Below, in pieces: positions 1 through 16,787 of a stretch of DNA of 64,000 nt. How positions within the stretch are numbered: the stretch's first letter is position 1; each line of letters starts with the position of its first letter. This DNA is from Acidimicrobiaceae bacterium (GTDB lineage Bacteria > Actinomycetota > Acidimicrobiia > Acidimicrobiales > RAAP-2). The DNA lies in assembly GCA_027451285.1 (NCBI GenBank), contig DAIDJP010000013.1:62001-126000 (forward strand). The letters are read 5' to 3'. The notes under the pieces were generated by a model, which was not told the DNA's origin, made no database searches, and saw only the letters and a list, made by a program, of their open reading frames with translations. The position numbers were made by a program, and so were the translations under genes.

Positions 1-48
1 CGTGCCGTGAGCCTGATAGTCCTTGATGATCTGTGCCTTCTCAGCCAT
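1..48 (-). CDS. rpsO: 30S ribosomal protein S15, N-terminal fragment
   Basis: Only the first 16 codons lie inside the window; they read MAEKAQIIKDYQAHGT, which matches the usual S15 N-terminus (a short basic helix ahead of the TGSPEVQ motif). The start ATG is at 46-48 with a TAAGG Shine-Dalgarno nine bases upstream. It follows ribF on the same strand, the classical truB-ribF-rpsO order, which supports the call. S15 binds the central domain of 16S rRNA early in 30S assembly. The remainder lies before base 1. Confidence 0.85.
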   Translation of the reverse strand, partial: MAEKAQIIKDYQAHGT

Positions 49-130
49 GTGTTAGTGCCTTATGAGTCGGGGGTCCCGTTGCGAGCCGCCGACGTGACGA
101 CCCACATGGCCAGCGTCGCTGGTCAAGGTT
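49..130 (-). promoter_or_regulatory. ribF-rpsO intergenic leader with a small hairpin
   Basis: The 82 bases between the ribF stop and the rpsO start hold a perfect 5-bp hairpin (CCAGC, loop GTC, GCTGG at 110-122) and the rpsO Shine-Dalgarno. S15 mRNA leaders are autoregulated in several bacteria (known); whether this short hairpin has that role is inference. Confidence 0.25.
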
Positions 131-1087
131 CTAGCCTAGCAGGACCGAGGCCGTCGGCGAGAAATTCGCGAAAACGTCCACGCTGGCCACGACGTCACGC
201 TCGATCTGGGCGACCAGGGCGGCCACGTCGGCGAAGACCTGCTCGCCGCGCAGCCGGCTGAGAAAGGCGACATCCAGGGTGGCGTCGTAGAGGTCGCCCC
301 CGTAGCCCACGACGTGGACCTCGACGAGAAGAACCCCGTCGTCGTAGAACTGGGGTCGGGTGCCCACCGAGATGGCGGCAGGCCACCAGCGCCCGTCCGG
401 CAGGCGGACCGCGCCGGCGTAGATGCCCGTCGCGGGCAGTTGCTGGCGCGCCCCCACCACCACGTTGGCCGTGGGATATCCCAGGTCGGTTCCGCGGGCG
501 TCGCCGTGGCCGACCTCGCCGCGCAGGACGAAGGCGCGCCCGAGGATGACCCCGGCGCGCTCGACGTCGCCCTCGGAAAGAGAACGGCGCACCGCGGTCG
601 AACTCCAGCGCTGGCCGTCGCCGAAGAGGACGCTCGGCGCGACGGAGAATCCCCACCGCTCGCCCTCACGCACGAGGAGATCGACGTCACCCGCGCGACC
701 CTCGCCGAAGCGAAAGTCCTGTCCGACCACGACCTCGAGTGCGCCGAGCTCGCCGACGAGGACGCGTTCGACGAAGTGCTCGGCGTGCTCGTGCGAGGCG
801 TGGTGGTCGAAGTCGAGGATGCGCACGCGATCCACCCCGAGAGCCTCTAAACCCTCCAGACGCTGGTCCAGGGTGCCGAGCAGCAGCGGCGCGTGCTCGG
901 GGTCGAGCACGTCGGCGGGGTGCGGATCAAAGGTGACGACACTGGCGAGCGCACCATGGGCGCGCGCACGCGTGATCACCTCGGCGATCACGCGCTGGTG
1001 ACCGCGATGCAGCCCGTCGAACACGCCAATCGTGACGACGCTCGGCGTCTCGTCGTGGCGAGCTTCAGCGTCGTGGACGACGATCAC
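131..1087 (-). CDS. ribF: Bifunctional riboflavin kinase / FAD synthetase
   Basis: Protein of 318 residues that phosphorylates riboflavin to FMN and adenylates FMN to FAD in the cytoplasm. The N-terminal nucleotidyltransferase domain shows the family's HxGH-type signature GVFDGLHRGHQRV at about residues 22-34. The C-terminal flavokinase half carries GTDLGYPTANV near residues 199-209, the flavin/ATP-binding signature, and an acidic EVHVVGYGGDLYD stretch. Length is normal for the fused bacterial enzyme. It is the penultimate gene of the rimP-to-rpsO series, 19 bases after truB, so it is probably co-transcribed with the translation genes. Confidence 0.96.
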   Translation of the reverse strand: MIVVHDAEARHDETPSVVTIGVFDGLHRGHQRVIAEVITRARAHGALASVVTFDPHPADVLDPEHAPLLLGTLDQRLEGLEALGVDRVRILDFDHHASHEHAEHFVERVLVGELGALEVVVGQDFRFGEGRAGDVDLLVREGERWGFSVAPSVLFGDGQRWSSTAVRRSLSEGDVERAGVILGRAFVLRGEVGHGDARGTDLGYPTANVVVGARQQLPATGIYAGAVRLPDGRWWPAAISVGTRPQFYDDGVLLVEVHVVGYGGDLYDATLDVAFLSRLRGEQVFADVAALVAQIERDVVASVDVFANFSPTASVLLG

Positions 1088-1106
1088 AGGGTCAACCTAC
1101 CGGCCC

Positions 1107-1979
1107 CTACGCGCCATCGGCGAACACGAGCGCGGGCTGATAGTCCTCGCCGCGGCGTTCGAGCACGGCCACGAGGGCGCCTGACGAATCGAGCGCGGCC
1201 ACCTCGACGTCGCGCCCGTCCACGCGCAGGCGCTGACCGTGGCGGACGCGCCGAATCTGATCGTCGTCGAGGGTCACGTGCTCGAGGTGGGTGACGAAGG
1301 CCTCCGGCGCCATCACGCTGGCGTCGGGATCCTCGGCGATGGCCTCGAGAGTGCGAGCGTCCTCGACGCGGTGATCGCCGCTCGCCACCCGCCGCAGGGC
1401 CACCAGGTGACCAAGGGTTCCCAGGCGCTCGGCCAGATCGCTCGCCAGGACGCGCACGTAGGTGCCGACCGAGCAGGTGACGACGAAGTCCCAGCGCGCG
1501 GGGTCCGGTGTCGCGCGTAGTTCAAAGGAGCCCACCGTGATCGAGCGCGGCTCGCGCTCGACGACCTCGCCTCGGCGAGCCAGGTCGTAGAGTCGCTCGC
1601 CGCCGTGGTGCAGCGCCGAGACCATCGGCGGCACCTGACGCTGCTCGCCCGTCAGTGTCGCCGCCGCGGCGTTCACGGTCGCCTCGTCGAGCGGTGGCAC
1701 CGCGGCGCGCTCGACCTCTGTGCCGTCGGCGTCGAGTGAGTCGGTGGCCACACCGAAGAGGATCGTGCCGGTGTAGGTCTTGTCACGACCCTGGGCGAAG
1801 CGAATCAGGCGCGTGGCGGGACCGACCGCGAGGATCAGCAAACCCGTCGCCATGGGATCGAGCGTCCCGGCGTGTCCGACGCGGCGCTCGCCCAGGATCC
1901 GACGAAGGCGAGCGACGACGTCGTGACTGGTCAGTCCCGCCGGCTTGTCGACGAGGACCATCCCATTACGAGTCGTCAT
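1107..1979 (-). CDS. truB: tRNA pseudouridine(55) synthase
   Basis: Makes pseudouridine 55 in the T-loop of tRNAs. The motif HAGTLDPMATG with the catalytic Asp at about residue 42 is the TruB active site, and DKPAGLTSHDVV near the N-terminus is also family-specific. I chose the ATG at 1977-1979 (protein starts MTTRNGMVLVDKPAG, 290 residues) rather than an upstream start, because it matches the family N-terminus. The start lies inside the 3' end of rbfA, a 14-base overlap that suggests translational coupling. Downstream is ribF. Confidence 0.95.
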   Translation of the reverse strand: MTTRNGMVLVDKPAGLTSHDVVARLRRILGERRVGHAGTLDPMATGLLILAVGPATRLIRFAQGRDKTYTGTILFGVATDSLDADGTEVERAAVPPLDEATVNAAAATLTGEQRQVPPMVSALHHGGERLYDLARRGEVVEREPRSITVGSFELRATPDPARWDFVVTCSVGTYVRVLASDLAERLGTLGHLVALRRVASGDHRVEDARTLEAIAEDPDASVMAPEAFVTHLEHVTLDDDQIRRVRHGQRLRVDGRDVEVAALDSSGALVAVLERRGEDYQPALVFADGA

Positions 1980-2322
1980 GGCTCTGGCGGCGCAGGATCT
2001 CCTCGATAGCCTCGCCACTTCTCACCGCCGGGTCGGCCGCGAAGGAGAGCTTGGGCGTGCGCTTGAGACGCGTCTGGGCGTTGACCGAGGCCTGAATCGC
2101 CGAGCGGTGCTCGACCAGGGCCTCGTGCGCGCCCGCGCTGAGCGAGTCGAAGTACACCGTCGCCTGGCGCAGGTCCGGCGACGTGTCCACCCCGGTGACC
2201 GTGATCAGTTCGAGTCGCTCGTCGAAGTCGGCGAGGCGCACCAGTTCGTCGGAGATGACCTCGCGCAGGATCTGGTTCACCCGAGCCGAGCGCGGGTAGG
2301 GCTGATGTGAGCCGGTGGCCAC
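1966..2322 (-). CDS. rbfA: Ribosome-binding factor A
   Basis: Small KH-fold protein of about 118 residues that binds the 5' helix of 16S rRNA and helps late 30S maturation. Recognisable features are RVNQILREVISDELVRL at the N-terminus and the motif ITVTGVDTSPDLRQATVYF, typical of RbfA. The GTG at 2320-2322 is chosen because the next upstream starts would run deep into infB; it sits two bases after the infB stop codon. It overlaps truB at the other end, so infB-rbfA-truB is a tight translational unit. Confidence 0.92.
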   Translation of the reverse strand: MATGSHQPYPRSARVNQILREVISDELVRLADFDERLELITVTGVDTSPDLRQATVYFDSLSAGAHEALVEHRSAIQASVNAQTRLKRTPKLSFAADPAVRSGEAIEEILRRQSHDDS

Positions 2323-2324
2323 GA

Positions 2325-5018
2325 CTACGCCGTGCGCGGTATCTCGCGCTCTTCGAAGGTCTCGATGATGTCGCCCTCTTTGAGGTCCTGGTAGTCCGAG
2401 AGGCCGATGCCGCACTCGTAACCGGCCGCGACCTCGCGCGCGTCATCCTTGAACCTGCGAAGCGACGTGATCGTTCCCTTCCAGATGATCGCGCCCTCGC
2501 GCAGGAAGCGGACCTTGGAGCCGCGGGTGATGACCCCGTCGCGCACGAAGCAGCCCGCGACGGCGCCGATCTTGGGTACGCGGAAGACCTCTCGCACCTC
2601 GGCCTCGCCGGTGACGATCTCTTCGAAGACCGGGGTCAGCAGGCCCAGCATGGCGCCTTCGATCTCCTCGATCAGCTTGTAGATGATCTCGTAGGTGCGG
2701 ATCTGCACGCCTTCGGACTCGGCCATCTCGCGACTGCGACGGTCCGGGCGGACGTTGAAGCCGATGATCGTCGCCCCGGAGGCTTTGGCCAGCTGGACGT
2801 CGTTCTCGGTGATGCCGCCGACGCCGCGGTGCACGAGCACCAGCTTGACGTCGTCGCGCTCGAGCTTTCGCAGCGACTCGGTGCAGGCCTCGAGTGAGCC
2901 CTGCACGTCCGCCTTCAAGACGACGTTGAGCGTGGCCGTCTCGCCGCGCTGGATCTGCTCGAAGAGGTCCTCGAGACGTGCCCCGCTCGCCGAGGCGATC
3001 GGCTGATGCCCGATCAGGCGCACGCGCTGGGCGCGCGCTTCGGCGAGGGAGCGCGCGTGGGCGAGGTCGTCGGCCACGCGCATCTCGTCGCCGGCGAGCG
3101 GCGGCTCGGAGAATCCGAGGATCTGCACTGGCGTCGAGGGTCCGGCCGTCTTGACCGGCTTGCCCTGGTCGTTGATGAGGGCCTTCACCTTGCCGTAGGC
3201 GGCGCCGGCGACCACGGGGTCGCCCACCGCGAGCAGGCCCTTTTGGACCATCACCGTGGCCACCGGGCCCCGGCCGACTTCGAGGTTGGCCTCGAGGACC
3301 GTGCCCATGGCCCGTCCCGTCGGGCGGGCGGTCAGCTCGGCGAGCTCGGCGACGAGCAGCACCTGCTCGAGCAGGTCGTCGATGCCCAGATTCTGCAGCG
3401 CGGAGATCTCGACGCAGATGGTGTCACCGCCCCACTTCTCGGGCACCAGTCCGTGCTCGGAGATCTGCTGGAGGACCCGGTCGGGGTTGGCGTCGGGCCG
3501 GTCGATCTTGTTCACCGCGACGATGACGGGAACCTGGGCGGCCTTGGCGTGGTTGATCGCCTCGACGGTCTGGGGCATGACGCCGTCGTCGGCGGCGACG
3601 ACCAGGATCACGATGTCGGTCACCTTGGCGCCGCGGGCGCGCATCGCCGTGAAGGCCTCGTGGCCCGGCGTGTCGAGGAAGGCGATGGTCTTGTTGTGCC
3701 ACTTGACCTGGTACGCGCCGATGTGCTGGGTGATGCCACCGGCCTCACCGGCGACCACGTTGGTCTTGCGGATCTGGTCGAGCAGCTTGGTCTTGCCGTG
3801 GTCGACGTGGCCCATGACGGTCACGACCGGCGGACGCGGCACGGCCGGGATCTCCTCGTCGAGGTCGTCCTCGTCGAAGAACTTGGCCAGCAGGGCGGCC
3901 TCTTGCTGCTCACCCGGGTCCACCAGGCGCACGGCGGCGCCGACTTCAGCGGCGTAGAGCTCGATCATGTCGTCGCTGAGTGCCTGAACGGCGGTGACGA
4001 TCTCACCCTGGAGGAACAAGAAGCGAATGATGTCGGCGGCGCTGCGGTTGAGCTTGGGACCAACGTCCTTGGCCGTCGAGCCACGCTCGATGATGATCTC
4101 GCCCTCGGGGACCGGCGCGCTCGACGGCGCCCAGGTCGTCATCTGGGTCGGCTCGAGCTCTTCCATGTTGCGCCGGCGCCGGCGCGTCGTCTTGCGCTGG
4201 CTGCCACGCGGACCTCCGCCGCCACGGCTGGCCAGGCCGCTGCGGCCCGGTCCCGACGTCGACGGGGCTCCTCCGCGGAAGCCGGTCGTCGGCGCGCCCG
4301 TGCGCGGTGCGCCGGGACGCGGCGCGCCGCCCGAGGGGCGCGCACCCATGGGGCGCGATCCGGGCGTCGAGGGACGCATGGGTGCACCGGCCGGCGGGCG
4401 GCGCATGCCCGGCGGCGGCGGGATCGGGCGACCTGACGGGCTGAGCGGACGTCCCGGGGGCGGGGGAATCGGACGCCCGGTCGAGCTGAGCGGCGGGCGA
4501 CGCGCGGGCGCGGCCTCGCCGTCGCCGCTCGGGCGCTGGGTGGGTCGAATGGTGGTGGGCCCGTCGGGGGTGACGGTGCGTACGGGCGGGGCCTTGGGCA
4601 CGATCGTCGGACTCGAGCGTACGACGCGCGGCGCCACCTCCTCGACCGGCGCCTCGGCCGCGGGCGCCTCGGGGGTGGGAGCGGGAGCGGGTGCGGGGGT
4701 CTCGGTCCGGGCCTCGACCGCGCGGGTTACGGGCGCGGGCGCCTCGGGGGCGGGGGCGACCGGAGCGCTCGCAGCGGCTGGTGCGGCCTTGGTGGCCTTG
4801 GTGGCCCTGGCGGCCTTGGCCGGCTCAGCCGGCGGCGTCTCGCGGCGCAGGCCGTCGGCGTCGACGCGTCGACGGATGCGGTCGGCCTGGGCGTCCTCGA
4901 TGGACGCCGACGGGCTGGAGGCCCCGATACCCAGCTTCTGGGCGATCGTGAGCAGTTCCTTGCTCGTCAGTCCGAGCTCCTTGGAGAGCTCGTGTACCCG
5001 GATTTTCTTCAGCGCCAA
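2325..5018 (-). CDS. infB: Translation initiation factor IF-2
   Basis: GTPase that delivers fMet-tRNA to the 30S subunit and promotes subunit joining. An IF2_N-type domain ([18 protein letters not shown]) opens the protein. It is followed by a long low-complexity linker of roughly 250 residues rich in Ala, Pro, Gly and Arg that contains two GRPIPPPPG repeats. The G domain begins with GHVDHGKT at about 403-410, with DTPGHEAF and NKID further on, then domains II, III and the C-terminal tRNA-binding domain. I place the start at the TTG at 5016-5018, which has GAAGGA five bases upstream; a GTG at 5055-5057 would add 13 residues. About 897 residues. Confidence 0.96.
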
Positions 5019-5063
5019 AACAGTCCTTCGTATTGCGTGCGTGGTTTTCGCACGCACGGCTAC

Positions 5064-5321
5064 CTATTCTTTCACAACTACACCCGCGCTTGGCCCCTCG
5101 GCCAGCAGCGCACTCAGCGCCGCGGCCTCGGCGTCTCCCACGGGCGCACGTAGCGCCCGCGCGAGCTGACCCGCAACCAGGCGGTCCCGGCAGGTGCCGT
5201 CGGCGCACAACCACGCCCCGCGACCCTCACCACGACCCACATACCACTGCCCGCCTCGCCGGCCGACGCGCACCAGGTGATCGTCGTCGCGCCGCGCGCG
5301 ACAGACCACGCAGGTCCGCAC
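5064..5321 (-). CDS. ylxR: YlxR family RNA-binding protein
   Basis: Small basic protein (85 residues) of the YlxR/DUF448 family. The N-terminus RTCVVCRARRD and the downstream GRGEGRGAWLCADGTCRDRL reproduce the conserved Cys/Arg pattern of the fold. It lies in its standard place between nusA and infB; the GTG start at 5319-5321 follows the nusA stop by five bases. Family members bind nucleic acid and have been linked to RNase P and transcriptional effects in other bacteria (known); nothing here narrows the role. Confidence 0.85.
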   Translation of the reverse strand: MRTCVVCRARRDDDHLVRVGRRGGQWYVGRGEGRGAWLCADGTCRDRLVAGQLARALRAPVGDAEAAALSALLAEGPSAGVVVKE

Positions 5322-5326
5322 CGGGG

Positions 5327-6493
5327 CTACGCGCCCTCCTCTTCGACCGCGACCTCGACGGGCTCGACCTCTTCGACGAGGTCGATCTCCTCGTGGTCGC
5401 CCTCGGCGTCGGTGACGACCACCGACTCCTCGATGGTCGCACCCGCGTCGTGCTCGACGACGCGAACCGTCTCGTCGACGACCACGTCGCCCTCGGTCCA
5501 GACCTCTTCGACCACTTCTTCCTCGGCGCCCTCGTTCTCGGAGCGGATGTCGATGCGCCAGCCGGTCAGGCGCGCCGCCAGGCGGGCGTTCTGGCCCTCC
5601 TTGCCGATGGCGAGCGAGAGCTGCTGGTCGTGGACGATCACCGTGGCGACGCCCTCTTCCTCGTTGAGCAGCACCTCGCGCACGCGCGCCGGGGCGAGCG
5701 CGGACTGGATGAACTCGATGGGGTCGTCGCTGAAGGGCACGACGTCGATGCGCTCGCTGCGCAACTCGTTGGTGATGTTGCGCACGCGCGATCCGCGCGC
5801 GCCCACGCAGGCGCCGACCGGATCGACCATCTGGTCGTTAGAGGCGACGGCGATCTTGGAGCGGTGCCCGGGTTCGCGCGCCAGCGCCTTGATCTCGACG
5901 ATGCCGTTGGCGATCTCGGGCACCTCGATCTCGAAGAGCTTGGCGACGAGCGCCGGGTGGGTGCGGCTCACGACGATCTGGGGACCCTTGTTGGTCTTGC
6001 GAACCTCGACGATGTAGACCTTGATGCGCGCGCCGTGCTCGTAGCGCTCGAAGGCGATCTGCTCGGCCTGGGGCAAGAGGGCCTCGACGCGCCCGAGGTC
6101 GAGCAAGGTGTAGCGGTTGTCGTTCTGCTGAACCGTGCCCGAGACGATGTCGCCCTCGCGGTTGGCGAACTCCTCGTACATCTGGCGGCGCTGGATGTCA
6201 CGGATCAGCTGCATCAGGACCTGCTTGGCCGTCTGGGCCGCGATGCGACCGAAGTCCTCGGGCGTGGCGTCCCACTCGCGCGTGACGTTGCCCTCGAGGT
6301 CGAGTTCGAGTCCCCAGACCTTGATCTCGCCGGTCTCGGGGTTGATCTCGACCTCGGCGTCCTCGGCTGAGTCCGGGCGGCGCTTGTAGGCCGCGAGCAG
6401 CGCGTTGGCCAGGGCGATGAGCAGCTCGTTCTCGTCGATGTTCTGGTCGCGGGCAATCTGTCCCAGGGCGTCAAGGAATTCAAAATTCGCCAT
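5327..6493 (-). CDS. nusA: Transcription termination/antitermination protein NusA
   Basis: Binds RNA polymerase and nascent RNA to modulate pausing, termination and antitermination. The protein (388 residues) starts MANFEFLDALGQIARDQNID, the usual NusA N-terminal domain, followed by an S1 domain (GDIVSGTVQQNDNRYTLLDL) and two KH domains (GACVGARGSRVRNI; AIGKEGQNARLAARL). The last 60 or so residues form a strongly acidic Glu/Val-rich tail without the repeats seen in proteobacteria. ATG at 6491-6493, preceded by AAAGG and two bases after the rimP stop. The gene may be autoregulated through the leader upstream of rimP. Confidence 0.97.
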   Translation of the reverse strand: MANFEFLDALGQIARDQNIDENELLIALANALLAAYKRRPDSAEDAEVEINPETGEIKVWGLELDLEGNVTREWDATPEDFGRIAAQTAKQVLMQLIRDIQRRQMYEEFANREGDIVSGTVQQNDNRYTLLDLGRVEALLPQAEQIAFERYEHGARIKVYIVEVRKTNKGPQIVVSRTHPALVAKLFEIEVPEIANGIVEIKALAREPGHRSKIAVASNDQMVDPVGACVGARGSRVRNITNELRSERIDVVPFSDDPIEFIQSALAPARVREVLLNEEEGVATVIVHDQQLSLAIGKEGQNARLAARLTGWRIDIRSENEGAEEEVVEEVWTEGDVVVDETVRVVEHDAGATIEESVVVTDAEGDHEEIDLVEEVEPVEVAVEEEGA

Positions 6494-6495
6494 GA

Positions 6496-6966
6496 TCAGC
6501 CTTTCTTGCTCGTCGAAGTGGTCGGGGCGGGTCCCCATGCGAAGACGGTGCGGGCGCGCTCGACGCCCTCTAAGCGCACCACGACGTCCTCGCCGTCGAC
6601 GCGCAGCGTTGCGGTCTCCTCGTCAGCGGCCACGAGCTCGCCCTCGAGGCGGCGCGTGGGCTCTGCGTCACGGCGCTCGCGCAACGTGACGGTCTCGCCG
6701 ACGGCGCCGCGAAAGTGCTCGGGCGTGCGCAGCTGGCGCTCCAGGCCCGGGCTCGCCACGTCGAGGGTGTAGTGGCCGGGGATCGGGTCGGTCTCGTCCA
6801 GCCAGGCCGACAGGGCCCGGCTCGCGCTGGTCAGCGTCTCGAGGTCGATGCCCCCCTCGCGGGTCACCGTGACGTGCAGGGTCCCGGCGGAGAGGTCGAT
6901 GTCGTAGAGGGAGATTCCCAGCTTCTCCAGGAGTGTGCGCACCGGTGTCTCGAGTTCCATCACCAT
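6496..6966 (-). CDS. rimP: Ribosome maturation factor RimP
   Basis: Assists 30S assembly. About 156 residues; the N-terminal alpha/beta domain shows GISLYDIDLSAGTLHVTVTREGGIDLETL and the central DPIPGHYTLDVASPGLERQL, the family signature, with a C-terminal SH3-like domain. I chose the ATG at 6964-6966 because GGAGAGGAG lies just upstream and the family N-terminus starts here; a second in-frame ATG follows two codons later. First gene of the rimP-nusA-ylxR-infB-rbfA-truB-ribF-rpsO series, with its own promoter and a terminator-bearing leader. Confidence 0.93.
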   Translation of the reverse strand: MVMELETPVRTLLEKLGISLYDIDLSAGTLHVTVTREGGIDLETLTSASRALSAWLDETDPIPGHYTLDVASPGLERQLRTPEHFRGAVGETVTLRERRDAEPTRRLEGELVAADEETATLRVDGEDVVVRLEGVERARTVFAWGPAPTTSTSKKG

Positions 6967-6990
6967 CGCTCCTCTCCTGATCAGCGTCCA

Positions 6991-7023
6991 GACAACAAAA
7001 AAGCACGGGCCCAAGGCCCGCGC
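6991..7023 (-). terminator. Intrinsic terminator inside the rimP leader
   Basis: Read on the minus strand, a 9-bp stem (7015-7023 pairs with 7003-7011, one G-U pair) closes a 3-base loop and is followed by seven U then GUUGU. This is a canonical rho-independent terminator. It sits between the rimP promoter (-10 at 7063-7068) and the rimP start at 6966, so it should interrupt rimP-nusA transcription as well as stop read-through from proS. Confidence 0.75.
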
Positions 7024-7062
7024 TAAAACGAGTCCAAACGTCCTTGGCGGACTGTCGCGACC

Positions 7063-7091
7063 AGTGTAGCAGTTAGAGCGTCTCGCCACAA
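7063..7091 (-). promoter_or_regulatory. Promoter of the rimP-nusA-infB operon
   Basis: Minus-strand -35 TTGTGG (7086-7091), exactly 17-base spacer, -10 TACACT (7063-7068). The predicted start is near 7056, giving a leader of about 90 bases before rimP. The leader contains CCAAGG (7042-7047) complementary to the CCUUGG in the centre of the terminator hairpin. Confidence 0.65.
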
Positions 7092-7149
7092 TCGAGGCGT
7101 GACCGGATAACCCCTCCCGCTAGGGACGGTAGCACGCCGAGGGGGGCGA

Positions 7150-8553
7150 TTAGTACGAGCGCGCCACGATCGCCAAAAGACCCGTTTCCTCGATGCTCTC
7201 GGGCACCGAGCCGTCGGGGCGCGTCAGGCAACGCACCGTGACCGCCTCGGCGTTGAGGCGGTCCTCGCCGGCCTCGCCCACCGCGGCCCAGGGCAGACGG
7301 GCGAAGCCCTCCTGGGCGGCCTCGAGCGCCTCGTCGACGCTGGCCACGTCGCGCGTGGCGCCGTCACGCCGGACGGTGGCCGCCGCCAGCAGGTCGGCTT
7401 GGACGACCTCGAGCAGCGCGGACGCCGCGCTGGCCAGGCCCTCGATCGGTCGAGTGATCTTCTCGCCCGTGTCGCGGCGCACCAGGGTCACGACGCCCTC
7501 GGCGAGGTCGCGCGGACCCACCTCGACGCGCAGGGGCACGCCCTTGATCTCCCAATCGGTCACTCGTCGCCCGAAGCTGCCGCGGCCCTGGTCGGCGCGG
7601 GCCCGCACGCCCGCGCCCGCGAGGTCGGCCACGATCCGCGCGACCGCCGCCGCGACCGCGTCGTCGTCGCGCACGGGGATGACGACCACCTGGATCGGCG
7701 CCACGCGCGGCGGCACCACCAAACCCTGATCGTCACCGTGGGTCATGATCAGCCCGCCCACCAGTCGCGTCGACGCCCCCCACGAGGTCGTGTGGCAGTA
7801 TTCGGACTGACCGTCCTCGCTCTGGAAGCTCACCTCGAAGGCGCGCGCGAAGTTCTGGCCCAGGTCGTGGCTGGTCACCATCTGCAGGGCCTTGCCGTCC
7901 TTCATCATCCCCTCCGCGGTGATGGTGTTGAGAGCCCCGGCGAAGCGCTCGCGCGGCGTCTTCATCCCGAGGTACGTCGGCGCGGCGAGCACGTTCACGA
8001 GGAAGTCGTTGTAGACGTCGAGGTGGATCGTCATCAGGTATCTAACAGCGTCCTCGCGGGTGGCGTGCGCGGTGTGGCCCTCCTGCCAGAGGAACTCGCT
8101 CGAGCGTAGGAAGAGGCGCGGACGCATCTCCCAGCGCACGACGTTGGCCCATTGGTTGAGACGCAGCGGCAGATCACGGTGGCTCTGGATCCATTTGGCC
8201 ATGAACTCGCCGATCACCGTCTCTGACGTCGGGCGCACCACCAGGGCCTCGGCCAACTCCTCGCCGCCGCCGTGGGTGACGACCGCGAGCTCGGGTGAGA
8301 AGCCCTCGACGTGCTCGGCCTCGCGCGAGAAGTAGTTCAGCGGGATCAGGAGTGGGAAGTAGGCGTTCTCGGCCCCCGTGGCCTTGATGCGCACGTCGAG
8401 CTCGGCCTGCATGCGCTCCCAGATCGCATATCCGTAGGGGCGGATCACCATGGTCCCGCGCGCCGGGCCGTTGTCGGCCATCTCGGCCTTCGCCACGACG
8501 TCCTGGTACCAGCGGGGAAAGTCCTCGCCCTGGGGGGTCAACACTGCGGCCAC
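7150..8553 (-). CDS. proS: Prolyl-tRNA synthetase, archaeal/eukaryal (ProS type 3) form
   Basis: Charges tRNA-Pro. At 467 residues it is the short form: it lacks the roughly 180-residue editing insertion of typical bacterial ProS and ends in a C-terminal Tyr (ARSY), as in the archaeal-like type. Class II motif 2 is visible as VVRWEMRPRLFLRSSEFLWQ, TSE in VVRPTSETVIGEF, and a C-terminal anticodon-binding domain (PPRVAPIQVVVIPV) follows. It lies 36 bases after ispG on the same strand and before the rimP promoter, so it probably ends the cdsA-dxr-rseP-ispG-proS unit. Confidence 0.95.
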   Translation of the reverse strand: MAAVLTPQGEDFPRWYQDVVAKAEMADNGPARGTMVIRPYGYAIWERMQAELDVRIKATGAENAYFPLLIPLNYFSREAEHVEGFSPELAVVTHGGGEELAEALVVRPTSETVIGEFMAKWIQSHRDLPLRLNQWANVVRWEMRPRLFLRSSEFLWQEGHTAHATREDAVRYLMTIHLDVYNDFLVNVLAAPTYLGMKTPRERFAGALNTITAEGMMKDGKALQMVTSHDLGQNFARAFEVSFQSEDGQSEYCHTTSWGASTRLVGGLIMTHGDDQGLVVPPRVAPIQVVVIPVRDDDAVAAAVARIVADLAGAGVRARADQGRGSFGRRVTDWEIKGVPLRVEVGPRDLAEGVVTLVRRDTGEKITRPIEGLASAASALLEVVQADLLAAATVRRDGATRDVASVDEALEAAQEGFARLPWAAVGEAGEDRLNAEAVTVRCLTRPDGSVPESIEETGLLAIVARSY

Positions 8554-8589
8554 GAGTCTCCTTTGTTGGCTGAGAAGCCTAGCGAAGGC

Positions 8590-9852
8590 TCACTCGTGGG
8601 TTCGACGACGGATCTCGGTGACCTTCTCGGCGACGTGGTTGGCGTCCGCGCCGCGGTCCTCGAGCAGCGCCGCGCGATCCGCGGCGGCCGCGGCCTCGGC
8701 GGTGACGTCGCGTGCGGCCAGGCGGGCCTCGACGCCCTCCTCGGCGATCTTGGTCGCCTCCTCCACGAGCGCGGCGACCATCTCGTCTTCGGGCACGACC
8801 CGTACGATCTGGCCGCGAATGAAGAGGTGCCCGCGCTTCTTGCCCGCGGCGATGCCCAGGTCGGCGTGGCGCGCCTCGCCGGGACCGTTCACCACGCAGC
8901 CCATCACGGCCACCTGGATCGGTAGGCCCATTCCGGACAGGGCGTTCTGCGCCGCGGTGGCCACGCCGATGACGTCGACCTCGGCGCGTCCGCAGCTGGG
9001 ACAGGCGATCAGGTCCAGCCCGCGTCGTTCGCGCAGGCCCAGGGATTCGAGCAGCTGGCGTCCCGCGCGGGCCTCCTCGACGGGATCGGCGGTCAGCGAG
9101 TAGCGCAGCGTGTCGCCGATGCCCTCGGCGAGGAGCGTGGCGATGCCCGCGGTCCCCTTGATGAGGCCCCCGGGCAGGGGTCCGGCCTCGGTCACGCCGA
9201 GGTGCAACGGGTAGTCGAAGGTCTCGGCGGCCAGTCGATAGGCGCCGATCATCGTGGCCACGGAAGAGGCCTTGACCGAGATCTTCACGTCGTGGAAGTC
9301 GACTTCGTCGAAGTAGGCGAGTTCGAGGCGCGCCGACTCAACCAGCGCCTCGGGGGTGGCGCCACCGAAGCGCTCGTAGATGTCCGGGTGCAGACTGCCG
9401 GCGTTGACGCCGATGCGAATGGGCACCCCGCGGTCCTTGGCCTCACGGGCCACGAGCTTGATCTCCTCGGGCTTGCGCAGGTTGCCGGGGTTGAGGCGCA
9501 GTCCGTGCACGCCCGCCTCGAGGGCGGCGAGGGCCATCTCGACGTGGAAGTGGATGTCCGCCACGATGGGCACCGGCGAGCGCGGCACGATCTGGGCCAG
9601 TCCCTCGGCGGCGGCGCGCTCGTTGCAGGTGCAGCGCACGATGTCGGCGCCGGCGGCGGCCAATTCGTAGATCTGTCCGAGTGTGCCGTCGACGTCCGCG
9701 GTCTTGGTGGTCGTCATCGACTGGACCGAGATCGGCGCGTCACCACCGACGGCGACGCTGCCGACGTGAATCTGGCGCGTGCGCCGACGGGGACTTAAGG
9801 GGCTGGCGGTGACATCCACTCCCCCATTCTGCCGTGTCGCGGCGGGGACCAA
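8590..9852 (-). CDS. ispG: 4-hydroxy-3-methylbut-2-en-1-yl diphosphate synthase (IspG)
   Basis: Penultimate step of the MEP isoprenoid pathway, an Fe-S enzyme that reduces MEcPP to HMBPP. TIM-barrel half: VGGDAPISVQSMTTTKTADVD and NPGNLR; C-terminal half carries the [4Fe-4S] ligands ACPSCGR and GCVVNGPGE. About 50 extra residues rich in Ala/Glu form the C-terminal tail. The start is uncertain: the TTG at 9850-9852 and a GTG at 9817-9819 (11 residues shorter) both leave the conserved core intact, and neither has a well-spaced Shine-Dalgarno. Together with dxr it places two MEP enzymes in one unit. Confidence 0.95.
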   Translation of the reverse strand: MVPAATRQNGGVDVTASPLSPRRRTRQIHVGSVAVGGDAPISVQSMTTTKTADVDGTLGQIYELAAAGADIVRCTCNERAAAEGLAQIVPRSPVPIVADIHFHVEMALAALEAGVHGLRLNPGNLRKPEEIKLVAREAKDRGVPIRIGVNAGSLHPDIYERFGGATPEALVESARLELAYFDEVDFHDVKISVKASSVATMIGAYRLAAETFDYPLHLGVTEAGPLPGGLIKGTAGIATLLAEGIGDTLRYSLTADPVEEARAGRQLLESLGLRERRGLDLIACPSCGRAEVDVIGVATAAQNALSGMGLPIQVAVMGCVVNGPGEARHADLGIAAGKKRGHLFIRGQIVRVVPEDEMVAALVEEATKIAEEGVEARLAARDVTAEAAAAADRAALLEDRGADANHVAEKVTEIRRRTHE

Positions 9853-9857
9853 ACCTT

Positions 9858-11105
9858 CTAGCGGAAGGGGTTCGCGATCGGGTGAGCGATGTCGAGGTAG
9901 AGGGTCGTGGCAAAGAGCACCAGCAGGACCGTCACGAACGCGTAGACGAGGGGCAGCAGCTTGTTCACGTCGGCGTGATAGGCCCCCTTGCGGCTGCGCA
10001 GGCGCTCGTAGGTGGCCACGGCCACGTAGCCGCCGTCGAGCGGCAGCATCGGCATCATGTTGAACACGCCGACGAAGACGTTGACCGCCATCAAGAGTTC
10101 GAGCATCACCCCGACGCCGGCCTGGGAACTCTGAACGGCGAGACGGGCCACGCCCACGATCGACTGGGGCCGATTCAGTTGGTTGGTCGGGTTGTTCGCC
10201 GCCGCCGGCGAGGCGACCTGGTGGAACAGGCTCGAGAACTGCGCGGGCGAGAAGACCCGCCCGATCGCGGCCACCGACATCGTGAAGATCCGCCCCACGG
10301 TCGAGAACGACTGGGGGATCGCCGCGAGGGCCGAGGTGCGCACGGTCTGGGCGACCAACTCGACGCCGAGATAGCCCTGGGGCGTGGACCCCGTGGCGAG
10401 CGGCTGTCCGTTGACCTTAAGCGTGCGCCCGTCGACCGGGGTGGCGTGCAGGGTCAGGTTGCGCCCGTCGCGCGAAACGACGATCGTGAGGCGTTGGCCG
10501 GTGTGCTCGTGCACCAGGTTGACCAGGGTGTCGGCGTTGGTGATGGTGGTGCCGTCGACGGAGACGATGCGGTCTCCCACCTTGATCCCGGCGAGCTGGG
10601 CGGCGTTGAGCGCGTGACCCTGCCAGGGGGTGAAGGAGGCGACTCCTATGTGACTGGCCGAGGGCACGCCCACCATCGTGAGAGAGGCCCAGGCGAGCAC
10701 CAGGGCCATCACGCCGTGCATCAGGGATCCCGCCGAGGCGAAAAGGACCTTGCGGGGATAGCTCGCTTGGCGATAGGTGCGACTCTCGAGCGCGGGGTCC
10801 ACGGTGTCGGTCCAGGTCATGCCGGGCACCTTCACGTAGCCGCCGAGCCACAGCGCGCGGATTCCATATCGCGTCTCGCCGCGCTGGATCGACCAGACGA
10901 CGGGACCGAATCCCACGAAGAAGTCGGTCACCTGCAGTCCGGCGCGCTTGGCCGTGATGTAGTGGCCGAACTCGTGTCCCATCACCATGACGAGCAGCGC
11001 CCCGATGACGACCGGCAGCGCCCAGCCGCCGACCCAGGCCAGCACGGCGGCGATGGCCACTATCGAGGCGATCAGCAGCGCGAGAGAACTTCGAGACCCA
11101 TTCAT
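9858..11105 (-). CDS. rseP: M50 site-2 intramembrane metalloprotease (RseP-like)
   Basis: Membrane protease that cuts substrates within the bilayer, for example anti-sigma factors or signal-peptide remnants. The HEFGH zinc motif (about residues 44-48) lies in a membrane segment after an N-terminal hydrophobic stretch. A single PDZ domain (AGIKVGDRIVSVDGTTITN) follows, and the third zinc-ligand motif NMMPMLPLDGG lies near the C-terminus, followed by a last transmembrane helix. 415 residues, normal for the actinobacterial Rip1 type. The ATG overlaps the dxr stop (ATGA). The dxr-rseP-ispG order is common in actinobacteria. Confidence 0.93.
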   Translation of the reverse strand: MNGSRSSLALLIASIVAIAAVLAWVGGWALPVVIGALLVMVMGHEFGHYITAKRAGLQVTDFFVGFGPVVWSIQRGETRYGIRALWLGGYVKVPGMTWTDTVDPALESRTYRQASYPRKVLFASAGSLMHGVMALVLAWASLTMVGVPSASHIGVASFTPWQGHALNAAQLAGIKVGDRIVSVDGTTITNADTLVNLVHEHTGQRLTIVVSRDGRNLTLHATPVDGRTLKVNGQPLATGSTPQGYLGVELVAQTVRTSALAAIPQSFSTVGRIFTMSVAAIGRVFSPAQFSSLFHQVASPAAANNPTNQLNRPQSIVGVARLAVQSSQAGVGVMLELLMAVNVFVGVFNMMPMLPLDGGYVAVATYERLRSRKGAYHADVNKLLPLVYAFVTVLLVLFATTLYLDIAHPIANPFR

Positions 11106-12265
11106 GACCGTTTCGTCACGCTAGCGGCGGCCAGGCGACGCGCGGCCGCATCGTTCTCGACCAGATCCGCCAGGCTCGCCAAGGGGTCGTCCACGTAGCG
11201 CTCCATCACCTCGGCGACCACCGGGACGATGTCGGACCAGGCCAGGCGCTCCTCCAGGCAGGCAGCCACGGCGACCTCGTTGGCGGCACTGAGCCAGGCC
11301 GGCGCGGCGCCCCCGCGCGCGGCGGCGTCGTAGGCGAGACCCAGGGCGGGAAAGGCCTCGCGGTCGGGCGTCTCGAAGGTGAGGCTCAGGCCGCTGGCGA
11401 AGTCGAGCGCCCCCCAGGCGTGATCGAGACGTTCGGGCAGTCCCAAGCAGTAGGCGATCGGCAGGCGCATGTCGGGCCGCGAGAGCTGGGCGATGACCGA
11501 GCCGTCGACATATTCGACCATCGAGTGCACGATCGACTGGGGGTGCACCACCACCGTCACACGGCTCACTTCGACGCCGAAGAGCGCCGAGGCCTCGAGG
11601 ACCTCGAGGCCCTTGTTCATCAGTGTCGAGGAGTCGATCGTGATCTTTGGCCCCATCGACCACGTGGGGTGCACCAGCGCGTCGGCGCGCGTGGCGCTGC
11701 GCAGCCGTTCCCGGCTCCAGCCGCGAAACGGGCCACCCGACGCGGTCAGGATCAGGCGGCGCACGTCGGGATGCCCCGGCGCGCTCGAGGACGCGAGGCA
11801 CTGGTGGATCGCGCAGTGCTCGGAGTCGATGGGAAGTATCTGCGCACCGGGCGTGTCGCGCACCGCCGCCACCAAAGGTGCCGCGGCGATGAGGGACTCC
11901 TTATTGGCGAGCGCCAGGCGCTTGCCCGCCGCGAGGGCCGCCATCGTCACCGGCAGTCCGGCGAAGCCGACCACCGCGTTGATGACAATGTCCGCACTCG
12001 CGGCGAGATCGCGGAGACCGTCCTCGCCGGTGACGAGCTCGACGCCGGGCTCGAGCAGCGCTGTCATCGCCGGTGCGTCCGAAGCGCGCGCGATTCCCAC
12101 GCGCGTGACGCGGAACTCGCGGGCGATCTCGGCCAGGCGCTCTAGCTGGGTGCCGCTCGAGATGGCGACGAGCTCGAAACGCTCGGGCTCGCGGCGCAAG
12201 ACGTCGAGGGCCTGCGTGCCGATCGAGCCCGTCGCCCCGAGCAGCGCCACGCTGCGACGCGCCAT
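11102..12265 (-). CDS. dxr: 1-deoxy-D-xylulose 5-phosphate reductoisomerase
   Basis: Converts DXP to MEP with NADPH, the committed step of the MEP pathway. GATGSIG near the N-terminus is the NADPH-binding loop; NKESL and PIDSEHCAIHQCL contain the metal/substrate residues; ASGGPFRGW is the flexible loop; TWSMGPKITIDSSTLMNKGLE is a strong family signature. 387 residues, full length. Start ATG at 12263-12265, two bases after cdsA; its stop overlaps rseP. Confidence 0.97.
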   Translation of the reverse strand: MARRSVALLGATGSIGTQALDVLRREPERFELVAISSGTQLERLAEIAREFRVTRVGIARASDAPAMTALLEPGVELVTGEDGLRDLAASADIVINAVVGFAGLPVTMAALAAGKRLALANKESLIAAAPLVAAVRDTPGAQILPIDSEHCAIHQCLASSSAPGHPDVRRLILTASGGPFRGWSRERLRSATRADALVHPTWSMGPKITIDSSTLMNKGLEVLEASALFGVEVSRVTVVVHPQSIVHSMVEYVDGSVIAQLSRPDMRLPIAYCLGLPERLDHAWGALDFASGLSLTFETPDREAFPALGLAYDAAARGGAAPAWLSAANEVAVAACLEERLAWSDIVPVVAEVMERYVDDPLASLADLVENDAAARRLAAASVTKRS

Positions 12266-12267
12266 GA

Positions 12268-13557
12268 TCAGCCCAGGTGCAGAACGCGGGTCAGGTAGAA
12301 GACCGTCGGCAGTGCAAAGAGCAGCCCGTCGATGCGATCCAGCAGCCCGCCGTGGCCCGGTAGGAGCCGACCGAGGTCCTTCACGCCGAGGGTCCGCTTG
12401 AGCATGGACTCAAAGAGGTCCCCGAGCGGCGCGGCCACCGACACCGCGACGGCGAATTCGAGGCCGTGGGTCGTCGTCCACGGACTGATCATGGGCAGGA
12501 TGAAGGCGCCCACGACGAGGGTGAGCAGGGTGCCGCCGATCGTTCCCTCACGGGTCTTGTTCGGCGAGAGCCGCTGGTTCAGGGGATGGCGGCCGATCCA
12601 CCTACCGATGAACAGCGCGCCCGTGTCATTGGCGACCGTCAGGACGATCGTGCCAAAGAGATAGGCCATTCCGTGACGATCGACCGAGTACTGCGGCGAG
12701 ATCATGAGCAGCGCAAAGGAGCCCAGCACGCCCACCCAGACGTAGACGAAGATCGTCGCGCCCAGGCCGTCGAGCACGTCGATGGACCGTTCGGCACTCG
12801 CGTACCAGAGGAAGCCGGTGACGACCAACAGGGCGGTCACCGCGGCGGTCGCCGCCAGTCCGCGCTCGTAGGACGCCACGCCCAGGGTCAGCACCGCGAC
12901 GAGGCCCAGGAGGGTCGCCGGGTGCGCCCCGCTGCGACGAAACGCGGCGTAGCCCTCGGCGGCGGCGAAGGCCAACGCGCAGAGCACCAGCAGCGCCACC
13001 GGCACGGGTCCGGCGACGAAGAGCACCGCGACCAGCACGCCGAGCGCCAGGCCCGTGGTCATCGCCTGAGAGACGCTGTTCGACCGGCTCTGACGAGCGG
13101 CGCGACCGGCGAGGGGGTTCTCCGGCCGGCGCGTGCGCTCCACGCGCGGTGGCTCGGGTCGCGGGGTCTCGTCGAGGATCTTCTCCTCGGCCACGACATC
13201 CTCGGCCAGCACGAACTCCCAGGGTCGCGACTCGTCCTCTTTCGACTCACTCGCGAGGAAGGACGCGTCGAACTGCTCCTCGTGGGCTACCCAGTCGGCT
13301 TCACCCTCGCGCCAGGCGGGCGCCGGAATCGCGGCCCACGGATCGTCGCTCTCGGCCGCCTCGCGCGCGACGACGATCGGCACCTGACCGGTCGGAGCGT
13401 CCGTCCAGTGCGGCAGCGTGGTCTCGTCGACGACGGCGCCGTCGGCCGCCTCGGCGGCGACTTCGGCCCCGGTGATCGTGACCCGCGAGTCGCTCGAACT
13501 CACCACCGGCACTTCGCCGGTGGCTTCGTCGCCGAGGAACGGGTCGTCAGACTTCAA
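12268..13557 (-). CDS. cdsA: Phosphatidate cytidylyltransferase with long acidic N-terminal extension
   Basis: Makes CDP-diacylglycerol from phosphatidate and CTP at the membrane. The C-terminal half is polytopic (about eight hydrophobic segments from residue 165 on) and ends with the CdsA signature KRTLGVKDLGRLLPGHGGLLDRIDGL. The first 160 or so residues are a hydrophilic Asp/Glu/Ala-rich segment without recognisable domain, probably cytoplasmic and disordered. The start is a TTG at 13555-13557 within the last codons of frr, with AGGAA four bases upstream. Frr, cdsA and dxr form one transcription unit. Confidence 0.92.
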   Translation of the reverse strand: MKSDDPFLGDEATGEVPVVSSSDSRVTITGAEVAAEAADGAVVDETTLPHWTDAPTGQVPIVVAREAAESDDPWAAIPAPAWREGEADWVAHEEQFDASFLASESKEDESRPWEFVLAEDVVAEEKILDETPRPEPPRVERTRRPENPLAGRAARQSRSNSVSQAMTTGLALGVLVAVLFVAGPVPVALLVLCALAFAAAEGYAAFRRSGAHPATLLGLVAVLTLGVASYERGLAATAAVTALLVVTGFLWYASAERSIDVLDGLGATIFVYVWVGVLGSFALLMISPQYSVDRHGMAYLFGTIVLTVANDTGALFIGRWIGRHPLNQRLSPNKTREGTIGGTLLTLVVGAFILPMISPWTTTHGLEFAVAVSVAAPLGDLFESMLKRTLGVKDLGRLLPGHGGLLDRIDGLLFALPTVFYLTRVLHLG

Positions 13558-14116
13558 GAAGTTCCTGCTCTTTGTGGTGCAACAGCACGTCCACCGCGGC
13601 CACTTCGTCCTGGGTCATCTTGTCGAGCACCTTCTCGACGCGCTCGATCTCGTCACTCGAGAGTCCCTGGTCCTTTTCGAGGGCCTCGAGCTCTTGGCGG
13701 GCGTGGCGACGCACGCCGCGCAGGGCGACCTTTCCCTCTTCGGCCTTGGTGCGTACGAGCTTGACGAAGTCGCGCCGGCGCTCTTCGGTCAGCGTCGGGA
13801 ACGTGAGGCGGATGACCTGGCCGTCGTTGGACGGGTTCAGTCCCAGGTTCGCGTTGGTGATCGCCTTTTCGATGGCCGCCATGGCCCCCTTGTCGAAGGG
13901 CGAGATCACGAGAAGGCGCGGCTCGGGCACCGAGAAGTTCGCCAGCTGACGCAGCGGCGTCTCGGTCCCGTAGTAGTCGATCGGCAGGTGCTCGACCAGC
14001 GCCGAGTTGGCCCGGCCCGTTCGCACCGTGGCGAACTCGTTCTTCACGTGCTCGATCGCGCGGGCCATGCGCTCGCGCGTGTCTTCCATCACCAGTTCAA
14101 CGAGCTCGTTTTCCAT
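13547..14116 (-). CDS. frr: Ribosome recycling factor
   Basis: Splits post-termination ribosomes with EF-G. 189 residues forming the usual long three-helix bundle with a small beta domain: VRTGRANSALVEHLPIDYYGTETPL and PFDKGAMAAIEKAI are conserved family segments. The ATG overlaps the pyrH stop by one base (TAATG) and its 3' end overlaps the cdsA start by 11 bases. Placement after rpsB-tsf-pyrH is the standard bacterial order. Confidence 0.97.
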   Translation of the reverse strand: MENELVELVMEDTRERMARAIEHVKNEFATVRTGRANSALVEHLPIDYYGTETPLRQLANFSVPEPRLLVISPFDKGAMAAIEKAITNANLGLNPSNDGQVIRLTFPTLTEERRRDFVKLVRTKAEEGKVALRGVRRHARQELEALEKDQGLSSDEIERVEKVLDKMTQDEVAAVDVLLHHKEQELLEV

Positions 14117-14826
14117 TACTTCACCAGCGTACCGACGGCGTGGCCGTCGAGCGCGAGCCCAAGATTCCCCGGAGCCATCAGGTCGAAGACGCGCAGCGGC
14201 AGGTTGTTGTCCTTGCAGAAGGTGATCGCGGTCATGTCCATGACGCGCAGGTTACGCGCGATGACCTCGTCAAAGGAGATCTCGTCGAACTTGGTGGCCT
14301 TCGGATTGATCCGGGGATCTTCGTCGTACACGCCGTCGACCCCACCGTGGGTGCCCTTTAGAACCACCTCGGCCTCGATCTCGGCCGCGCGCTGGGCCGC
14401 CGGCGTGTCGGTCGTGAAGTAGGGGTTGCCCATGCCGGCGGCGAAGATCACCACGCGGCCCTTCTCGAGGTGGCGCACCGCGCGACGACGGATGTAGGGC
14501 TCGGCGACCTGGTCCATGCCGATGGCCGACATCACTCGGGTCGGACGTCCGTGGCTCTCGATCGCGTCCTGCAGAGCCAGGGCGTTGATCACGGTACCGA
14601 GCATGCCCATCAGGTCCGAGTTGGCCCGGTTCATGCCGGCCATGGCGCCGGTCGCCCCGCGCCAGATGTTGCCGCCGCCGACGACGACGGCGAGCTCGAG
14701 GCCGCCGCGATCCATCGCGCGCGAGATCTCGCGGGCCAGGAAGTCAACCGTGGAGGCATCGATCGTCTCGTCGCTGGCGGCCGAGGCCAGCGCCTCGCCC
14801 GACAACTTCAAGACGACGCGGCGCAC
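14116..14826 (-). CDS. pyrH: UMP kinase
   Basis: Phosphorylates UMP to UDP; hexameric member of the amino-acid kinase family. Visible motifs: VVLKLSGEALA at the N-terminus, VVGGGNIWRG for phosphate binding, and DTPAAQRAAEIEAEVVLKGTHGGVDGVYDEDPR, the UMP/ATP region. 236 residues, full length. Starts with GTG at 14824-14826, three bases after tsf. Confidence 0.97.
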   Translation of the reverse strand: MRRVVLKLSGEALASAASDETIDASTVDFLAREISRAMDRGGLELAVVVGGGNIWRGATGAMAGMNRANSDLMGMLGTVINALALQDAIESHGRPTRVMSAIGMDQVAEPYIRRRAVRHLEKGRVVIFAAGMGNPYFTTDTPAAQRAAEIEAEVVLKGTHGGVDGVYDEDPRINPKATKFDEISFDEVIARNLRVMDMTAITFCKDNNLPLRVFDLMAPGNLGLALDGHAVGTLVK

Positions 14827-14829
14827 GAT

Positions 14830-15621
14830 CTAGCTTCCGACGACCACTTGTGCGTACGCCCGAACCGTCGCCGGGCTGACGAACTGTCCGACGGCGACCT
14901 TCTCGTCCTTGACGTAGGGCTGCTCGACCAAGACGCGCTCCTTGAACCAACCGTTGAGTCGGCCTTCGATGATCTTAGGCAGTGCGGCCTCGGGCTTTCC
15001 CTCATTGCGAGAAATCTCCTCCACCGTCGCGCGCTCGGCCTCGACCTCGGCCGTGGGCACCTCGTCGCGCGTCAGGTAGGTGGGCTTGGCGAAGGCCACG
15101 TGCACGGCGATCTCGTGGGCGACCTCGGAGGTCCCACCGGCGAGCACCACGATCACGGCGTTCACGCCACGACCGGCCTGCTGGTGGATGTAGGTCTCGA
15201 TGACCTCCCCCTCGCCCGCGACGAGCCGGGCGACGCGACCCACGGAGATGTTCTCCTTGAGCGTCGTGAGGAGGGTCTCGATGCGGTCCTTGAACTCCGC
15301 GACGGCGTCCTCACCCGACGCGGCGACGCGCGCGGCGATCTCGTCGGCGAGGGAGACGAACTCCTCGGACTTGGCAACAAAGTCGGTCTCGCAGCGCAGT
15401 TCGACAATCGCGGCGGCCTGTCCGTCACGCACGACGGCCACGGCACCCTCGCCGGCCACGCGATCGGCGCGCTTGGCGGCCGACGCCAGCCCCTGCACGC
15501 GCAGCCACTGGGTGGCGGCGGCCATGTCGCCGTCGTTGGCCTCGAGGGCCTTCTTGGCGTCCATCATTCCCACGCCGGTTGCCTGGCGCAGGGCTTGTAC
15601 ATCCTTGGCTGTGATAGCCAC
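14830..15621 (-). CDS. tsf: Elongation factor Ts
   Basis: Nucleotide exchange factor for EF-Tu. The N-terminal UBA-like domain reads KDVQALRQATGVGMMDAKKALEANDGDMAAATQWLR, and the core contains RCETDFVAKSEEF, the TDFVA motif that contacts EF-Tu. I placed the start at the GTG at 15619-15621, with a strong GAAGGAG seven bases upstream, giving 263 residues. The open frame extends much further upstream, but that part is out-of-frame rpsB tail sequence. Length fits the compact EF-Ts found in actinobacteria. Confidence 0.96.
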   Translation of the reverse strand: MAITAKDVQALRQATGVGMMDAKKALEANDGDMAAATQWLRVQGLASAAKRADRVAGEGAVAVVRDGQAAAIVELRCETDFVAKSEEFVSLADEIAARVAASGEDAVAEFKDRIETLLTTLKENISVGRVARLVAGEGEVIETYIHQQAGRGVNAVIVVLAGGTSEVAHEIAVHVAFAKPTYLTRDEVPTAEVEAERATVEEISRNEGKPEAALPKIIEGRLNGWFKERVLVEQPYVKDEKVAVGQFVSPATVRAYAQVVVGS

Positions 15622-15643
15622 GTTGATTCTCCTTCGTCGGTGG

Positions 15644-16657: not shown

Positions 16658-16776
16658 GTTCTAGTTTCCTTCCGTTCGGTTATCGGTCCCCCGAGTGCAC
16701 CGCAAGCGGCGACCGTACGAAACCCGGGGGAAGACATCTCTGACCTCTCCCACCCTGGGAGAGCCAAACCATGTTA
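16658..16776 (-). promoter_or_regulatory. rpsB promoter and structured leader
   Basis: A minus-strand -10 candidate TAACAT lies at 16771-16776 (no good -35). Its predicted start coincides with a perfect 7-bp hairpin (16745-16751 with 16757-16763, 5-base loop). A second long-range stem pairs TCCCCCG (16688-16694 region) with CGGGGGA near 16727-16733. S2 autoregulates rpsB-tsf through its leader in other bacteria (known); these hairpins are candidates for that role (inference). Confidence 0.4.
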
Positions 16777-16787
16777 GTGGATCGGCG

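Follow-up and report, generated by a model that had tools for sequence, protein, structure and literature searches.

Leader of the rimP operon and leaders compared

The question raised by this locus is whether the gap in front of rimP carries a regulatory leader for the nusA-containing operon, and, if so, of what kind. The window, i.e. the whole 64 000-nt stretch of Acidimicrobiaceae DNA that was analysed, belongs to a genome of 2.03 Mb. All pieces of the leader lie on the minus strand, as read from the window sequence. The gene order on that strand, established from Pfam domains, is a proS-like gene (7150..8553, class II core and anticodon-binding domains) ending at 7150, a gap of 183 nt, rimP (6496..6966, RimP_N and RimP C-terminal domains), nusA (5327..6493, NusA_N, S1 and KH domains; start chosen by inspection), a ylxR homologue (5064..5321) and infB, which codes for IF2 (2325..5057). 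Three start codons are available to rimP (6966, 6963 and 6960); the spacing from the Shine-Dalgarno sequence AGGAG (6969..6973) favours 6963 or 6960. Elsewhere in the window (53317-53530) two divergent tRNA genes, tRNA-Arg(tct) and tRNA-His(gtg), stand 61 bases apart; at the gathering level, the Rfam search of the whole window returned four tRNAs only.

The rimP gene was located in 56 of 61 relatives (37 of the 61 belong to the window's genus), in 58 of 62 genomes from other genera of the family and in 59 of 70 genomes sampled phylum-wide. From these, 177 leaders were extracted (L001-L056, L080-L092 and L101-L208; four are repeat records). The window's genus, together with one neighbouring genus (L101), gave 90 rimP leaders (4 repeat records, 76 distinct); the alignment used for covariation and conservation, the latter measured as summed squared base frequencies, contains 47 of the distinct ones. 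Two records call for comment. L083 (CAJCJA010000014.1) is titled Candidatus Saccharibacteria, with a RimP 60% identical to that of the window and the genus-specific leader; the title is probably wrong since the genome falls in the window's genus. In G152, contigs C32 and C49 show the same leader string near both contig ends, probably as a result of assembly duplication.

A promoter and an intrinsic terminator in front of rimP

The first-pass annotation had seen a good promoter reading into an intrinsic terminator. Both hexamers are present as it noted them, TTGTGG at 7091-7086 and TACACT at 7068-7063 with a 17-nt spacer, and the promoter is conserved in the genus, but it has a poor -35 box and belongs to the extended -10 type instead (TGnTACACT). 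Its -35 box lies 58 nt from the end of the proS-like gene, and transcription likely starts at 7054..7057, judging from the distance to the -10 box. The TG precedes the -10 hexamer in 86/86 genus leaders, a count slightly favoured by the small bonus that our -10 scoring gives to TG. The best -35-like hexamer is at a 17-nt distance in 74 of these 86 leaders and, among the 12 commonest hexamers, is of the form TTGnnn in at least 66.

The terminator is the hairpin AGCGCGGGCC-TTG-GGCCCGTGCT (7024-7002), found by folding, by scanning and by comparison across leaders, and followed by five more T (7001-6997), where the 3' end of a short transcript would be expected from terminator anatomy. Its stem carries a GGGC/GCCC signature (GCGCGGGCC..GGCCCGTGC), and the U-tract ends 30-36 nt before the start codon. 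Folding of 7060-6980 gave -35 kcal/mol, with a z of -3.40 relative to shuffled sequences. Consensus scans of window positions 1-20000 found no sigma-70-like site at the scan threshold and six terminator-like sites against 6.0 expected, i.e. no excess. As judged from sequence comparison, the promoter and the terminator are nevertheless real and conserved: it is the relatives, and not the window sequence alone, that secure them.

In an automatic pick, 161 of the 177 leaders yielded a hairpin containing both GGGC and GCCC. Four of the other 16 were mis-picks (L105, L132, L135 and L142), the usual hairpin being visible alongside, and several of the remaining ones change letters yet keep the pairs. 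Aligning the rimP leader across relatives, as the annotation had advised, showed that the terminator stem is paired in 96.4% of cells in the 47 distinct leaders (18-58% for slid controls) and that it covaries: six cells were changed on both sides (0/500 shuffles as many) and so were two pairs (28/500 shuffles as many). The strict terminator signature was found just before rimP in nine of ten genomes among the matches listed with rimP coordinates, the exception being G051. A run of at least five uninterrupted T follows the stem in 49 of the 76 distinct leaders, and the run is interrupted after three or four T in 26. In the phylum sample, a U-tailed hairpin precedes rimP at 25 of 29 loci, 16 of them being of the form GTGGG..CCCAC. 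The five loci of family f65 (L213, L214, L215, L221 and L222) display a U-tailed hairpin that is inverted, with a C-rich 5' arm; no TATAAT-like box was found within 75 nt upstream of it. From this anatomy and conservation, we infer that transcription terminates there in vivo.

The simplest alternative is that the hairpin merely ends the upstream proS transcript and has no regulatory role, as the position of the proS-like gene in the window would allow. However, proS is not a constant neighbour: a proS-like C-terminus, recognized by a text pattern, is upstream in only 93 of 164 leaders, and the promoter-terminator pair is therefore independent of it. The terminator is kept where the upstream gene differs, a -10-like hexamer (loose criterion) precedes the hairpin in all 164 leaders, with TG in 143, and the sequence between promoter and hairpin, considered below, is conserved far beyond the needs of termination alone. 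We regard a plain proS terminator as very improbable.

A conserved 5' domain between the promoter and the terminator

The leader segment that precedes the hairpin, AGUCCGCCAAGGACGUUUGGACUCGUUUU (7025..7053), is as conserved as the terminator itself: in the 47-leader alignment the values are 0.88 for this 5' domain and 0.86 for the terminator, against 0.55 for the stretch following the U-tract and 0.45 for the 5' flank. The string AGUCCGC..GGACG is common to all 90 leaders of the genus and its neighbour (76 distinct) and continues as TnTGGAC in 64 of the 76. Over leader columns 11-67 the median identity to the window is 89% (63-94%), compared with a median of 61% for RimP itself (46 loci). The domain contains a small hairpin, GUCC (7052-7049) paired with GGAC (7043-7040), which is 100% paired in 47/47 leaders and never varies; an alternative pairing, AGUCC:GGACU, is 97.8% paired, without covariation. 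RNAalifold chooses the small hairpin and the terminator. Taken alone, the pre-terminator part (7060-7021) folds no better than shuffled sequences (z of 0.07).

Outside the window's genus, genera g28, g35 and g42 (L104, L115, L137 and relatives) possess a strongly conserved 5' domain of their own before the rimP terminator (CTGCCGTTCGGTTGGAGTG...GACGCTG), the letters of which are unrelated to those of the window. A part of the window's 5' domain, GGACTCGT, recurs 27 nt before the 16S gene in L072, and also inside 16S near +1117 in most of the 16S loci scanned (L058-L065); at two genus loci only, L064 and L072, could the 16S start be seen together with the sequence in front of it. A NusA site common to the rRNA leader was considered and rejected, since the 5' domain, aligned locally with three 16S loci, did no better than shuffled versions of itself.

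The invariance of the domain could be explained if the terminated RNA of about 60 nt were a trans-acting small RNA, an alternative already raised by the annotation and to which the presence of its own promoter and terminator, and a 5' domain no less conserved than the terminator, lend some colour. The distribution of the element speaks against it. Of the 61 genomes, 32 contain the strict pattern, each of them once; these 32 all belong to the window's genus, and every match sits just upstream of rimP (coordinates compared by hand); across the 61 genomes no copy was found before other genes. A looser pattern matched in 94 of 172 family genomes, where G126 is the only match outside the genus recognizable by eye as a leader; the others, and a few extra ones inside the genus, look like chance. 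Furthermore, the Rfam small-RNA matches are far below their cut-offs, and the domain shows some covariation with a downstream partner (see below) for which a trans-acting RNA would have no need. A small RNA is not needed to explain the element, and we hold it to be quite unlikely.

Pairings with the terminator arms

A leader of this type could be a switch if part of it paired with the terminator. It had been proposed that CCAAGG (7047-7042) competes for the CCUUGG of the terminator hairpin. The hexamer is located where it was placed, and corresponds to the loop of the small hairpin plus the start of its 3' arm. However, in only three of the 76 distinct leaders does the terminator region contain 6 nt exactly complementary to the hexamer that stands there; the match is rarely kept because both loops vary. 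The match in the window looks like chance and this antiterminator was rejected. Hence, of the terminator/antiterminator leader first envisaged, the terminator half holds and the CCAAGG half does not.

A more general antiterminator directed against the 5' arm of the terminator was rejected as well: across 39 genera, complementarity between leader and 5' arm was not above that of shuffled sequences (overall mean z of +0.63, with a negative mean in 7 genera, and -0.56 in the window's genus). One specific pairing deserves separate mention. The GUCCGC of the 5' domain could pair with GCGGGC in the terminator 5' arm (with an inner GACG:CGUU) before the 3' arm is made, and a ligand or protein could then stabilise it, which would make the leader a true switch. 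This stem was in the minimum-energy fold of five of ten leaders truncated after the 5' arm (L001, L024, L028, L033 and L196) and absent from that of the other five; 95.7% of its cells pair in the 47 leaders, against 31-48% with slid partners. None of its ten pairs, though, shows a compensatory change, because the letters hardly vary, and the lack of enrichment across the 39 genera also counts against a switch. As nothing covaries, the pairing is kept as a rival, and an unlikely one.

A stem that can enclose the terminator

A different pairing emerges when the sequence beyond the terminator is considered. Ahead of the terminator lies the segment GGACGUUUGGAC, whose complement is found directly past the U-tract. 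The resulting stem, with GUUUGGAC (7032..7039) as its 5' strand and GUCUGGAC (6986..6993) as its 3' strand, encloses the terminator and can be made only on read-through; it was found by folding and has support in the family. The 12-nt segment pairs with the downstream part with a mean probability of 0.91, but the duplex energy in the window's own sequence has a z of only -0.53 relative to shuffles. Of 75 distinct leaders, 61 have at least six pairs of the enclosing stem in their minimum-energy fold. The structure predicted by RNAalifold is without this stem.

Pairing statistics were obtained at two levels. In the 47 leaders, 80.5% of the cells of the enclosing stem pair, against 79.2% in shuffles (1/500 as high) and 31-45% with slid partners. 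The covariation score is 0.134 versus 0.115 (0/500 shuffles), the number of further pair types 14 versus 10.8 (1/500) and the number of cells changed on both sides 6 versus 2.1 (3/500); the count of pairs with a change on both sides, 3 versus 1.7, was not above shuffles (75/500). At the second level, the structure was taken from L104 and applied to 21 leaders from five other genera of the family (g28, g35, g40, g41 and g42), the letters of which are unrelated to those of the window. The same topology is paired there in 72.8% of cells (69.1% in shuffles, 1/500 as high; 32-45% with slid partners), with a covariation score of 0.206 versus 0.169 (14/500) and 14 cells changed on both sides versus 7.8 (4/500); pairs with a change on both sides (148/500) and further pair types (266/500) did not exceed shuffles.

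Genera inside and outside the family were then compared. The energy of the enclosing duplex is below that of dinucleotide shuffles in 14 of 20 family genera versus 7 of 20 others (split by hand). When the read-through leader was folded with the terminator held (up to six leaders per genus, four non-family genera being lost to length filters), the mean z was -0.87 for the family, with 14 of 20 genera negative, and +0.20 outside it, with 5 of 16 negative. These genus tests are not independent, since genera share ancestry. Over the phylum, 23 of the 29 loci were tested (all save L210, L212, L216, L224, L227 and L233), and the mean z of -0.45, with 15 negative values, is too weak to call. In a swap test on the 75 distinct leaders, the leader's own partner did better than the middle foreign partner in eight of ten sequence types; L101 and L196, which by this test lack the enclosing stem, were at 0.99, and for that reason the swap test lends modest support. 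The frequency of G-U pairs in the stem favours an RNA structure rather than a DNA operator. On these sequence data, the enclosing stem has partial covariation support, and its enrichment is seen in the window's family and not outside it.

What the stem could do is suggested by the ribosome site. The probability that the Shine-Dalgarno sequence is unpaired is 0.44 with the natural pre-terminator segment versus 0.36 with that segment shuffled, and higher in 57 of 75 leaders (one shuffle each). One could imagine that the main role of the leader comes after read-through, the stem-on-stem being a target for RNase III-like processing or a structure that exposes the translation start, with termination as a side effect. 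This is compatible with the attenuator reading given below, and besides the opening of the Shine-Dalgarno sequence it can draw on the partial covariation and on the cutting of E. coli metY-nusA-infB transcripts in their leader by RNase III, as described in the available text of PMC5371410 and PMC6511841. As the primary role it is rather doubtful, given that genera of the order and the phylum without a clear enrichment of the enclosing stem still keep the hairpin and its U-tract.

Comparison with known leaders and proposed mechanism

The closest published element is the rimP-leader of Naville and Gautheret (2010), a premature intrinsic terminator before rimP-nusA-infB with a GGGc(...)gCCC stem 4-130 nt from the gene; in the available text of that survey rimP ranks first among attenuator-preceded genes and NusA is the favoured effector (PMC2965389). 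The window's element agrees with it in its position 5' of the same operon, in its GGGC..GCCC hairpin with a U-tract and in lying within the 4-130 nt range. For the general rimP-leader the same text describes neither a larger conserved element nor a visible antiterminator, although in some Gammaproteobacteria another terminator lies upstream and may come with an antiterminator; in contrast, a 5' domain of about 30 nt is conserved in the window's genus, and the enclosing stem is present in its family. Actinobacterial rimP-leaders may be among those listed in the supplement of PMC2965389. The Rfam model of the element, RF01770 (rimP), did not list the window leader even at E<=10, other Rfam matches there being below threshold; it was over its cut-off in 0/61 genomes, and passes in only one of 14 control genomes.

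Three studied operons provide precedents, here as far as the accessible parts of the sources describe them. In Bacillus subtilis, NusA controls its own operon by stimulating intrinsic termination in the leader (Mondal et al. 2016, via the review PMC12288461); the window shares an intrinsic terminator in the 5' leader, a likeness of anatomy only. In Streptococcus agalactiae, the rimP operon gbs0413-gbs0418 yields a short and a long RNA from one start, with termination 31 nt on (PMC4448216). There too the terminator comes soon after the start, at an observed 31 nt against a predicted 60 nt or so here; the window leader is longer, with a conserved domain before its hairpin. The E. coli metY-nusA-infB operon is the same operon, with leader terminators and NusA feedback (cited in PMC2965389 and PMC4448216), and its RNase III cut parallels the long stem of the window; unlike the window's, its leader carries a tRNA gene and several promoters.

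NusA stimulates pausing and intrinsic termination, and here a nusA with S1 and KH domains is encoded in the gene cluster downstream of the leader. The first-pass annotation had called autoregulation by NusA attractive; with nusA in the operon, a conserved terminator and the published precedents, it can be retained as the best mechanism. RNA polymerase would start at the extended -10 promoter, near 7056, and run into the hairpin 7024-7002 with its U-tract about 60 nt on; some of the transcripts would end there and the remaining ones would continue into rimP-nusA-ylxR-infB. Plentiful NusA would most likely raise the stopping fraction, so that the operon limits itself. In the terminated RNA the 5' domain would be without its downstream partner; in the read-through RNA it would pair with the sequence following the U-tract and close the stem around the terminator, which would serve leader processing or keep the ribosome site open. 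That NusA is the effector is the best reading, and we infer it from the operon content and the precedents; for the role of the enclosing stem in processing or in ribosome-site access we would claim less. Counter to the attenuator reading, besides the failure of RF01770 to recognise the leader and the low duplex z of the enclosing stem in the window, the available text of PMC8060035 describes B. subtilis NusA-dependent terminators as having suboptimal hairpins and interrupted U-tracts, whereas the stem of the window is strong and its U-tract good.

Overall, we favour a rimP-leader transcription attenuator with NusA-responsive autoregulation, in which the 5' domain closes a stem around the terminator in the read-through RNA, and give it a probability of about 0.7. 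A more tentative extension, which we put forward as possible but less likely than not, is a leader acting in two stages: the NusA-type terminator would decide between stop and go, and in the go transcript the 5' domain would be captured by the downstream strand, marking the mRNA for processing or opening the ribosome site. On this view the topology is common to other genera of the family although their letters are quite different.

The attenuator is of a known kind, and what appears to be unpublished, as far as the literature searched goes, is the lineage-specific 5' domain and the enclosing stem that it forms with the sequence beyond the U-tract: in the open-licence literature, supplements aside, no paper was found on a rimP leader in Acidimicrobiia or on such a stem, and the term 'rimP leader' occurs once each in the available text of PMC5391140 and PMC5955585. 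To conclude, the element fits well into a known attenuator family, and its 5' domain and enclosing stem make it a variant worth testing. The similar hairpins at 25 of the 29 phylum loci show the depth of the element in the window's phylum, and the conserved rest of the leader, together with the stem across the terminator, offers a concrete way into the question of which factors other than NusA and the hairpin determine the level of an essential operon.
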